Origin: an uncultured Gammaproteobacteria bacterium
Lineage (GTDB): Bacteria; Pseudomonadota; Gammaproteobacteria; UBA4575
Assembly: GCA_951812785.1 (NCBI GenBank)
Contig: OX638335.1
Span: forward strand, 1,355,902-1,419,901
DNA: 64,000 nucleotides
Direction of reading: 5' to 3'
In this document: positions 9,085 to 11,631 of the stretch, in pieces
Layout of the letters: the number at the start of each line of letters is the position of its first letter
Position numbering within the stretch: position 1 is the first letter of the stretch
The notes under the pieces: model-generated
The model's input: the letters and a program-made list of their open reading frames with translations, nothing else
Database searches by the model: none
What the model was told of the DNA's origin: nothing
Position numbers and translations under genes: made by a program

Positions 9085-9092
9085 TTATTTTA
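9085..9092. repeat. Left 8-bp target-site duplication of the IS1595 element
   Basis: TTATTTTA directly abuts the left terminal inverted repeat and is repeated exactly at 11624-11631. An 8-bp duplication is the size known for IS1595-family elements. Confidence 0.92.
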
Positions 9093-9115
9093 GGGAATTA
9101 TATACCCGATTACAC
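9093..9115 (+). repeat. Left terminal inverted repeat of the IS1595 element
   Basis: This 23-bp sequence starts GGGAATTATATACCCG and is the exact reverse complement of 11601-11623. The two ends are identical, with no mismatch. Confidence 0.93.
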
Positions 9116-9148
9116 GAGGTGAGATTGACGACCACGTAAACTTAGGGG

Positions 9149-9162
9149 ATGATTATAATCAT
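9149..9162. promoter_or_regulatory. 14-bp perfect palindrome, candidate operator in the IS passenger promoter
   Basis: ATGATTATAATCAT is perfectly self-complementary. It ends on the first base of a possible -35 box (TTAGCA, 9162-9167). That placement would suit a repressor or autoregulator acting on the passenger operon. The palindrome is seen directly; the function is inferred. Confidence 0.4.
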
Positions 9163-9190
9163 TAGCAGCTATCATATATGTGTATATACT
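9162..9190 (+). promoter_or_regulatory. Candidate sigma-70 promoter for the IS passenger genes
   Basis: TTAGCA (9162-9167) and TATACT (9185-9190) are separated by 17 bp, about 37 bp upstream of the first passenger start codon. A good ribosome-binding site AAGGAGT (9214-9220) follows. The boxes are only partial consensus matches. Confidence 0.4.
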
Positions 9191-9227
9191 AAATACAAAA
9201 CAAGAAAGCATATAAGGAGTAAGAAGC

Positions 9228-9392
9228 ATGTCAAACATCCTTTTCAATAAGCCTGCGGAAGGCGAAACGGAAAAGAACGAATATCGCAAGATGCCAAAGC
9301 CTATAGATGCCTCTCCTGAACAAGTTGCAAAGGCGATAATGCAGGGGCCTCCAAAAAAACATTGGAGATTCCAGCAGAATAAACGTCGCTAA
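9228..9392 (+). CDS. 54-residue orphan protein of the IS1595 passenger module
   Basis: This small ORF has a strong ribosome-binding site (AAGGAGT, 8 bases before ATG). The product starts MSNILFNKPAEGETEKNEYR, contains MPKPIDASPEQVAKAI and ends PPKKHWRFQQNKRR. It is charged, has a basic C-terminal tail, and has no signal peptide or membrane segment. Its stop and the methyltransferase start overlap by one base (TAATG, 9390-9394), so translation of the two is probably coupled. I do not recognise a named family. A partner, regulator or DNA-binding helper of the methyltransferase-HNH protein is plausible but unproven. The ribosome-binding site, coupling and non-random composition make it likely to be real. 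Confidence 0.75.
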   Translation: MSNILFNKPAEGETEKNEYRKMPKPIDASPEQVAKAIMQGPPKKHWRFQQNKRR

Positions 9393-10597
9393 TGGTTTCT
9401 AAAATGAAACCAGAGTCTACCCCCCCCGCACCAAATTGGTGCAATCAGTCCATTTGGACGGGTGATAACTTGGATATCATGAGAGGTATGAACTCTTCTT
9501 GTGTTGATTTGATTTATCTTGACCCGCCATTCAACTCAAAATCCAACTACGCTGCACCGATTGGTAGCCAGGCAGCAGGCGCAGAGTTCAAAGACACTTG
9601 GACGTTGCGTGATGTTGCCATAGCATGGCTAGACCTGATTGAAAATAAATATCCGGCCTTGAATCGCGTAATACGTGCAGCTATGACTCCAAGCGATAAG
9701 TCCTATCTCATATATATGGCGATCAGGTTGCTGGAAATGCAGAGGTTGCTGAAACCTACAGGATCAATATTTCTACATTGCGACCCAACTATGAGTCATT
9801 ATCTTAAGACGCTGATGGATGCTATTTGGGGTAGGAACTGCTTTAGGAATGAAATTGTTTGGCATTATCAAACAGGAGGAGGTAGCAAAAGGTGGTTTAG
9901 CAAGAAACATGACACACTTCTATTCTACACGGCGGGTGAAAACTACAAGTTTAATGGAGCTAGTGTACCGCGTTCTGAGAAGTCGCTTGAGAGGGCAAAG
10001 AACCCCAAAGGGGCCAGGATCAAATCAGATAACACCTTGAAAATGGCCACCGATGTTTGGACCGACATCCCTGCGATGAACCCAATGTCTAATGAACGCG
10101 TAGGCTACCCCACGCAAAAGCCGCTGGATTTGTTGCGAAGAATCATAGAGGCCAGCAGCAACGTCGGTGATGTGGTGCTCGACCCTTTCTGCGGGTGCGC
10201 AACAGCATGCATTGCTGCCGAGCAGCTACAACGGTCATGGGTTGGCATCGATATTTCACCTAAGGCAGCGGAGTTGGTTGGGCTGCGGCTGCGGGAACAA
10301 GTTGGCTTATTCCAGCAGGGACCACACCGTACAGACATACCTCAGCGCACCGATATAGAACCTCTCAGGAAATACAATCACCCTGAGAACAAGACAAAAT
10401 TGTATGGGGAACAGAAAGGAAATTGTAACGGCTGTAAAGCGCATTTCAAAATACAAAATCTTACAATAGATCACATTATCCCGAAGTCAAAAGCTGGTAC
10501 GGATCACCTCATGAACCTTCAGCTACTTTGCGGACGTTGCAATTCAGTCAAGGGAGACAGGGGACAGGAATACCTGATTGCGAGGTTGGCCGCCTAA
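9392..10597 (+). CDS. Beta-class DNA methyltransferase fused to a C-terminal HNH nuclease domain (IS passenger)
   Basis: This 401-residue protein has two domains. Residues about 20-300 form an N4-cytosine/N6-adenine DNA methyltransferase of the beta order: the catalytic DPPF motif (residues 44-47, in YLDPPFNSKSNY) comes first. The SAM-binding motif VVLDPFCGCATA (near 262) and VGIDIS follow. Residues about 335-401 form an HNH zinc-finger domain with CNGC, TIDHIIPKSKAG, HLMNLQLLC and GRCNSVKGD. Both sets of catalytic residues look intact. It lies one base overlapping the 54-residue ORF and overlaps the convergent transposase by 4 bp at the 3' ends. A run of eight C (9420-9427) lies in codons 10-12 and could slip. 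Recognition sequence and whether the HNH part cuts DNA are unknown. Confidence 0.9.
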   Translation: MVSKMKPESTPPAPNWCNQSIWTGDNLDIMRGMNSSCVDLIYLDPPFNSKSNYAAPIGSQAAGAEFKDTWTLRDVAIAWLDLIENKYPALNRVIRAAMTPSDKSYLIYMAIRLLEMQRLLKPTGSIFLHCDPTMSHYLKTLMDAIWGRNCFRNEIVWHYQTGGGSKRWFSKKHDTLLFYTAGENYKFNGASVPRSEKSLERAKNPKGARIKSDNTLKMATDVWTDIPAMNPMSNERVGYPTQKPLDLLRRIIEASSNVGDVVLDPFCGCATACIAAEQLQRSWVGIDISPKAAELVGLRLREQVGLFQQGPHRTDIPQRTDIEPLRKYNHPENKTKLYGEQKGNCNGCKAHFKIQNLTIDHIIPKSKAGTDHLMNLQLLCGRCNSVKGDRGQEYLIARLAA

Positions 10598-11532
10598 GAA
10601 ATCAAGGCTTTATAGGTCAGTCGTTTTCTGCTCATCCCTTTGGCCACAGAGGTCATCTGCTGAATGGTGTCCATGTTTCTTTGGTTATAGCGTCCTGAAA
10701 ATTCCCCGACATAGCGGTTCAAGTGTTTCTCGCTCATGTGGTGGTATATCCCGTGATATCCTCTTTTCAAGAGTGCCCAGAAGGACTCAATACCGTTAGT
10801 ATTAGCTTGACCATTCACATACTGACTGATGCTATGTGTAACCGTTTCGTGGCGAAATGGTAGCCCTCGGTATGCACCATGCTCATCTGTGTAGACCACG
10901 GCGGCACCATTAGTACGGGAACCTACAAAACTGTGTAACGTCTCCTTGTTGTTACTGCCCACCTTTGTTGCACTGATCCGATTCGTTGCGCGATCTTTGG
11001 CCCCCACAACAATTGCTTTGCCCACGCCTCCTCGTCCCGCCTTAAGTCTCTTGTTGCTGTGTTTGTTCTTTTCCTTACCTCCAATATAGGTTTCATCTAC
11101 TTCAACAGGGCCATCAAACAAACCAGCATCTTGGTCTTCGTAGGTCTCTCGGATGCGATGCGCCAGAAACCATGCTGACTTCTGTGTGATACCAAGGTCG
11201 CGATGCAGCTTCATGGAAGAAACGCCCTTGATGTTCGTTGTCATCAGGTATATGGCAATGGCCCATACCTGAAAGCCCAAGGGGGAGCCTTGCATTAATG
11301 ATTTGGTTTTTACAGAGAAATACTTGCGGCAATCTTTGCAGTGATATGGTTGCGGTTTGCGGGATTTCCTTTCAGTCACGTGTAGAGAGCCGCAGTGAGG
11401 GCAACATACACCTTCAGGCCACCTGTTCTCTATAAACCACTGTTCGGCAGTTTCGTCATCAGGAAATCGTCGTGTAATTTCTATCAGAGACATACCTTCT
11501 CTGAAATGTTTGCCTGGCCCTTTCTGCGTCAT
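10594..11532 (-). CDS. IS1595-family transposase
   Basis: This 312-residue protein has an N-terminal zinc ribbon (CCPHCGS near 41 and CKDCRKYF near 65). The DDE-type IS1595 core follows: first Asp in VEVDETYIGG, second in VVYTDEHGAYRG, and catalytic Glu in NGIESFWALLKRGYHG. The start ATG (11532) lies about 70 bp inside the right end. Candidate promoter boxes lie just upstream. All motifs are intact and no frameshift is seen, so the enzyme is probably functional. Its 3' end overlaps the passenger methyltransferase on the other strand by 4 bp, leaving no room for a terminator between them. Confidence 0.95.
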   Translation of the reverse strand: MTQKGPGKHFREGMSLIEITRRFPDDETAEQWFIENRWPEGVCCPHCGSLHVTERKSRKPQPYHCKDCRKYFSVKTKSLMQGSPLGFQVWAIAIYLMTTNIKGVSSMKLHRDLGITQKSAWFLAHRIRETYEDQDAGLFDGPVEVDETYIGGKEKNKHSNKRLKAGRGGVGKAIVVGAKDRATNRISATKVGSNNKETLHSFVGSRTNGAAVVYTDEHGAYRGLPFRHETVTHSISQYVNGQANTNGIESFWALLKRGYHGIYHHMSEKHLNRYVGEFSGRYNQRNMDTIQQMTSVAKGMSRKRLTYKALIS

Positions 11533-11563
11533 TGCTCTCTGCTTTTCCGATTAACTTGGAAGT

Positions 11564-11592
11564 AGTTTACACACAGAGACAAGAAAACGCAA
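11564..11592 (-). promoter_or_regulatory. Candidate transposase promoter
   Basis: On the minus strand, TTGCGT (11592-11587) and TAAACT (11569-11564) are separated by 17 bp. They lie just inside the right inverted repeat and about 32 bp upstream of the transposase ATG. The boxes match the sigma-70 consensus only partly. Confidence 0.4.
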
Positions 11593-11600
11593 CCATTTTT

Positions 11601-11623
11601 GTGTAATCGGGTATATAATTCCC
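11601..11623 (-). repeat. Right terminal inverted repeat of the IS1595 element
   Basis: This is the exact reverse complement of 9093-9115. It is followed immediately by the second copy of the 8-bp target duplication. Confidence 0.93.
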
Positions 11624-11631
11624 TTATTTTA
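11624..11631. repeat. Right 8-bp target-site duplication of the IS1595 element
   Basis: TTATTTTA, identical to 9085-9092. Its last three bases, read on the minus strand, are the TAA stop codon of rlmH, so the insertion left rlmH complete. Confidence 0.92.

Follow-up and report, generated by a model that had tools for sequence, protein, structure and literature searches.

Here we show that a 64,000-nucleotide stretch of DNA from an uncultured gammaproteobacterium (referred to below as the window) contains a complete IS1595-family transposon, spanning positions 9093–11623, in which a gene encoding a methyltransferase fused to an HNH nuclease begins with a poly-C tract whose length differs between copies of the element in the same genome. 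The reading that we favor, and that we consider probable, is that a recently active transposon carries a phase-variable, single-chain, restriction-modification-like enzyme; the reversible switching of this enzyme, its methylation of DNA, its cleavage of DNA or restriction activity, and the advantage it would confer are what we infer from the arrangement described below.

The transposon in the window is bounded by 23-bp terminal inverted repeats of the sequence GGGAATTATATACCCGATTACAC (9093–9115 on the forward strand, pairing with 11601–11623 on the reverse strand) that are 100% complementary, and is flanked by an exact 8-bp target-site duplication, TTATTTTA, at 9085–9092 and 11624–11631. (Note that the repeat search reports 24 bp rather than 23 bp for these ends because one flanking base pairs by chance.) An intact open reading frame on the reverse strand (10594–11532) encodes a 312-amino-acid transposase that matches the Pfam profiles DDE_Tnp_IS1595 (PF12762, E = 2.6e-38) and zinc ribbon (PF12760, E = 3e-9), as well as the NCBIfam profile transpos_IS1595 (NF033547, E = 4.3e-54, above cut-off); the ISXO2-like DDE domain and zinc ribbon, together with the inverted ends and the 8-bp duplication, place the element in the IS1595 family. 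The cargo comprises two genes on the forward strand, namely a 54-amino-acid small ORF (9228–9392) and the 401-amino-acid methyltransferase-HNH fusion (9392–10597), with the TAA stop codon of the former overlapping the ATG of the latter (TAATG). The perfect ends, the exact duplication, the intact transposase and the two-gene cargo had all been put forward in the original prediction, and each was confirmed. The GC content of the element is 46%, compared with 39% for the window, and the element lies between two genes that, from their own sequence, we take to be maf-like and rlmH-like and that were both left unbroken by the insertion. A scan for promoters and terminators revealed no excess over shuffled sequences.

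The fusion protein matches the N6_N4_Mtase profile (E = 7e-43) and the HNH profile (E = 1e-12), both above cut-off. The DPPF motif (residues 44–47) precedes motif I (near residues 264–271), and the top Foldseek matches of the predicted structure are M.BceJIV, CcrM and RsrI; this motif order and these matches mark the enzyme as a beta-class DNA amino-methyltransferase. A stretch ahead of the sequence GYPTQKP varies in both length and sequence, as expected for target recognition. The HNH domain (residues 345–393; 10424–10570 on the forward strand; CxxC ... DH ... N ... CxxCN ... K) lies in the same polypeptide with its catalytic and metal-binding residues intact, and residues C345, C348, D360, H361, N375, C380, C383, N384 and K387 are kept in 81–83 of 83 relatives, a near-invariance suggesting that the nuclease is probably in use. 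The predicted structure is confident overall (mean pLDDT 87.5), and its weakest part is the N-terminus encoded by the tract: residues 1–10, ahead of the first strand, are disordered (mean pLDDT 58), so that changes in the length of the tract may be tolerable when the enzyme is made.

Three complete copies of the element are present in the single-contig genome of 2,158,385 bases, two of which, along with the difference in the tract, had escaped the original prediction. Each copy is flanked by a different, exact AT-rich 8-bp duplication (TTATTTTA, TAAATTTT and AAATTAAA), and this threefold occurrence speaks against an arrangement that came about by chance. The two additional copies (at loci L002 and L003) share one and the same sequence, and the sole difference between them and the copy in the window is one C fewer in the poly-C tract at 9420–9427 (forward strand), around the tenth codon of the fusion gene; the tract is thus C8 in the window copy and C7 in the other two. 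The copy at L002 (1501–4030; G000:C1:1025142–1027671) interrupts an AlkB-type gene, and joining its flanks restores a 198-amino-acid frame encoding a 2OG-Fe(II) oxygenase (PF13532, E = 1.5e-34). In addition, one match in a congener (G008) crosses the insertion point of the window copy and lacks the element. Taken together, the near-identical copies, the split AlkB-type gene and the empty site in the congener indicate that the element transposed recently. (The split AlkB-type DNA-repair gene lies near a tmRNA-like sequence.)

The length of the tract determines whether the fusion gene can be read. With C8, the frame that opens at the ATG at 9392 (or at the ATG at 9404) continues into the enzyme; with C7 the frame is lost after 29 codons and with C9 after 24 codons, and this pattern, open with C8 and closed with both C7 and C9, is the placement expected of a switch. 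The predicted product of the C7 frame is MVSKMKPESTPPHQIGAISPFGRVITWIS, followed by a TGA stop codon that overlaps an ATG at codon 30, such that reinitiation at this ATG could yield a shortened protein from the C7 copies. Finding the tract shifts our reading of the cargo from a constitutive to an on/off module. In particular, we propose that a slippery poly-C tract within the first dozen codons sets the expression of a beta-class methyltransferase with a C-terminal HNH domain that is carried beside the transposase of an IS1595 transposon. With C8 the start codon would be in frame and the whole enzyme would be made (ON), whereas translation would stop after 29 codons with C7 and after 24 with C9, and the two activities would disappear together (OFF). 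Slipped-strand mispairing at replication would shift the tract by one base, and OFF lineages could revert. As each copy would switch on its own, one good tract would be enough to make a cell with three copies ON. The advantage may be defence, or it may be self-maintenance of an element that has the means to silence its own cost.

Homopolymer miscalls are common in some long-read assemblies, and homopolymer error is the strongest doubt on the phase-variable account. Only one base separates C7 from C8, a difference of the kind that such assemblies typically get wrong, and if it were a sequencing or assembly error the enzyme would be a constitutive cargo in all three copies; the C19 tract of one relative, L053, which sits next to odd G runs where the contig ends, may be just such an artefact. 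However, a G9 run in a gltB-like frame of the same assembly is read in frame, with the frame open over 1002 amino acids, and a C8 run in a helicase-like frame likewise leaves that frame open. These runs argue against homopolymer error, and so do independent assemblies, in which tracts of 8–14 bases occupy the same site, although neither line of evidence settles the matter. An error would account for one length but not for the recurrence of the tract. We therefore regard error as an improbable source of the difference.

Because the C8 run in the window could be luck, and is by itself not significant, we gathered relatives by protein similarity, not by the presence of a tract, and counted runs of at least 8 C or G around the start of the conserved core in 115 non-redundant gene-start contexts. 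A tract was present in 15 of these 115 contexts but in only 31 of 13,846 background windows from the same loci (p = 3e-22), and the tracts, of lengths 8–19, sit at the same place in the gene. The remaining 100 contexts, many of them on transposons, are without a tract, as are all 79 viral relatives (0/79; Fisher p = 0.0005). Chance occurrence of a homopolymer is rejected, since only 4 C/G runs of at least 8 exist in the whole 2.16-Mb genome and the recurrence among relatives is far above background. The bearers of the tract belong to Gammaproteobacteria, to Rhodobacteraceae-type Alphaproteobacteria and to two Acidimicrobiia-type MAGs, and many of the relatives look like members of marine or sponge MAG series.

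Both open and closed states were found, among the three copies in one assembly and among the loci of relatives. Where starts are clear, the tract is in frame in the window (C8), L121 (C12), L057 (C10), L125 (C8) and L306 (C11), and one base off in L054 (C14), L074 (G12), L136 (G10), L159 (C9), L141 (C8) and L183 (C11); in L104 the C8 tract is one base off if a GTG is the start. (This tally leaves out L053, L073, L138 and L168, which cannot be called safely.) We placed 105 rows, 14 of them with the tract, on a maximum-likelihood tree made by a quick method; some of its branches are long, and exact counts taken from it are soft. Parsimony requires the tract label to change 13 times on this tree, and well-supported branches force at least 7 of these changes, which indicates that the tract has been gained repeatedly at one spot of the gene. 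The label clusters on the tree no more than shuffled labels do, and single inheritance of the tract is rejected by the tree. In one genome (G025), the paralogues L141, L159 and L183 carry C8, C9 and C11, respectively, and their tracts lead into leaders that resemble one another. The bodies of these genes nevertheless group with different clades, and it is possible that their 5′ ends have been exchanged.

A tract that is real need not be a selected switch, and the C7 copies might instead be dead, belonging to a passenger that decays at a mutational hot spot. Redundant copies would be under relaxed selection, and decayed fragments occur among the relatives (L062, L063, L168, L178 and L141); the C7 copies could, in particular, reflect drift of redundant duplicates in a cell that retains an in-frame copy. 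A length of C7–C8 is also short for a fast contingency tract, a point against the phase-variable reading in general. Decay, however, would scatter indels, whereas the three copies are otherwise identical and the out-of-frame genes of relatives, L141 aside, are mostly free of any other frame break in the core. Nor would decay be expected to produce repeated, independent gains of long tracts at one place. For these reasons we think decay unlikely, though somewhat less so than error, and retain the phase-variable reading.

The same tract could also govern an orphan methyltransferase that acts as a switchable regulator of genes (a phasevarion), with the HNH domain serving for DNA binding only. Type III mod genes turn on and off through simple repeats in their coding sequence, and the enzyme described here shares the beta-class fold with them, the Mod proteins of EcoP15I and Mbo45V being among its matches. 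Unlike those systems, the element is without a res gene or helicase, its poly-C/G tract lies at approximately codons 5–15, and the nuclease is fused in a single chain. The tract-bearing relatives L121 and L183 are without an HNH domain, as a pure regulator might be, but the metal-binding and catalytic residues of the HNH domain are nearly invariant across the 83 relatives, which speaks against a role in binding only. We consider the phasevarion the least unlikely of the alternatives, and still an unlikely one next to a switchable restriction-modification-like enzyme.

To define the mobile context of the relatives, we looked to either side of the enzyme gene for ends that match each other and are bordered by an 8-bp duplication, and found that the enzyme gene lies inside a complete element in 19 of the 105 tree rows; with this recurrence and with the HNH residues kept as described above, the methyltransferase-nuclease cargo is not debris. 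In most of these elements the ends are of the IS1595 type, GGG(A/G)ATTATA. Among tract-bearing rows 5 of 14 are transposon-borne, compared with 14 of 91 for the remainder, a difference that is not significant (p = 0.13). The idea that the tract marks only transposon-borne copies is thus rejected, and with no significant link in this sample the tract is best read as a property of the enzyme family, which transposons also carry. Tract-bearing enzymes are found on IS1595 elements in the window, L136, L183 and L306, and on IS1-type elements in L054 and L073. The latter two (L054, 1942–4518; L073, 4506–7194) have 8-bp duplications, a tract-bearing methyltransferase-HNH cargo and ends that differ from the IS1595 type (GGTAGTGNCTCAGTTTGAAA); their transposases are 55.5% identical to each other, and the match to PF03400 is just above cut-off in L054. 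The IS1595 transposon in L306 (2106–4925) comes from another family of the class, with a transposase 68% identical to that in the window, and carries a methyltransferase gene with a C11 tract together with a homologue of the small ORF. In place of HNH, its nuclease end appears to be Mrr-like, a reading that we base on motifs and on a weak profile match (Mrr_cat, E = 0.015, below the Pfam cut-off). Plasmid and phage collections yielded only methyltransferases of less than 60% identity. In Bacteroidia and in a Rickettsia-labelled MAG, methyltransferase-HNH genes stand in tandem, two or three to an array (L108, 4995–8708; L105, 1232–3735; L110, 3553–7462), and many of the genes in these arrays end in the same ...FGE peptide.

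The recurrence of methyltransferase cargo in many IS1595-type and two IS1-type elements raises the question of whether the enzyme serves the transposon, methylating its own ends or target DNA and so controlling transposition, with the HNH domain aiding insertion or strand processing and not restriction. Short, transposase-less elements, each with an 8-bp duplication, hold only a methyltransferase between matching ends in L086 (4932–6253; 1322 bp), L095 (4860–6398; 1539 bp) and L160 (1443–2693; 1251 bp), as such a role might lead one to expect. Many close relatives, however, lie outside any detectable transposon, the element in L307 has a related transposase and manages without the enzyme, and in L306 an unrelated, Mrr-like nuclease takes the place of the HNH half. 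Service to the transposon is therefore, in our estimation, improbable, and a switchable enzyme carried by a transposon remains our preferred explanation.

The small ORF has no family match in Pfam, NCBIfam, PADLOC or PHROGs. Homologues that share the core sPEnvAKAIMqGpPKKdW lie beside IS1595 transposases in L306 (68% identity over 41 amino acids), L195 (49%) and L307/L188 (55%), and a weak homologue lies near an IS1595 transposase in L055. The original prediction raised the question of whether the small ORF and the fusion always travel together, and the distribution of homologues answers that they do not: the IS1595 transposon in L307 (212–3799) carries two small-ORF-like genes and other uncharacterized cargo without a methyltransferase, in L306 and L195 the small ORF flanks the methyltransferase on the opposite side, and most methyltransferase elements are without it. 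The small ORF as a fixed half of a pair is accordingly rejected. Of the proposed mobile module, then, a recently active IS1595 element with a recurrent cargo stands, and an obligate pairing of small ORF and fusion does not. By its distribution the small ORF is a gene of the transposon lineage; in the window it may, in addition, be a leader through which translation is coupled to that of the enzyme gene. (In L054 an unrelated small ORF lies just upstream of the methyltransferase.)

Phase-variable restriction-modification is known mainly from loci on the chromosomes of bacteria adapted to a host, and it is known separately that insertion sequences carry passenger genes. Type IIG proteins are larger and have a PD-(D/E)XK nuclease; the enzyme described here falls outside that type, as its nuclease is a C-terminal HNH domain; a weak match to Mrr_cat (E = 0.015, below cut-off) is seen only in the analogue in L306. 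By analogy, and despite this difference of architecture, the enzyme would work most like Cj0031c of Campylobacter jejuni, which is reported to be a phase-variable Type IIG enzyme that alters site-specific methylation and restricts phage, and which has methyltransferase and nuclease in one gene (PMC4889913). Unlike Cj0031c, the enzyme described here has its HNH domain at the C-terminus of a beta-class methyltransferase, and its gene is on a transposon. IS1595 transposons with passenger genes (tIS) were described by Siguier, Gagnevin and Chandler in 2009 (cited in PMC5704250 and PMC7986276), and the element described here resembles them in transposase family, in GGG(A/G)ATTATA-type ends, in 8-bp AT-rich duplications and in passengers beside the transposase; here, the passenger has a 5′ poly-C tract and copies in one genome are in different phases. 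Roving methyltransferases of the Bacteroides fragilis group likewise occur as multiple near-identical copies in a mobile-element context, but homopolymer switches on an insertion sequence are not described in the accessible part of that report (PMC10333322). In the searchable literature, outside of which most subscription papers lie, we found no account of an insertion sequence with a phase-variable methyltransferase as its passenger; the parts are known and the combination is apparently new, this negative being weak evidence of novelty.

On our reading, the element joins phase-variable restriction-modification with the passengers of insertion sequences. More tentatively, and with somewhat less than even confidence, we suggest that it is one of a wide guild of small transposons, of the IS1595 and IS1 types, which carry phase-variable methyltransferase-nucleases through uncultured bacteria, symbionts among them. 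In this guild the tract would evolve time and again, since a restriction module that is mobile and able to fall silent could invade new, unmethylated hosts at a lower price in self-damage. If the switching is real, it would account directly for the entry of restriction modules into genomes that are not methylated and would provide one way for epigenetic switches to spread between distant bacteria; were the guild also real, its members would constitute a portable on/off switch, both epigenetic and restrictive.
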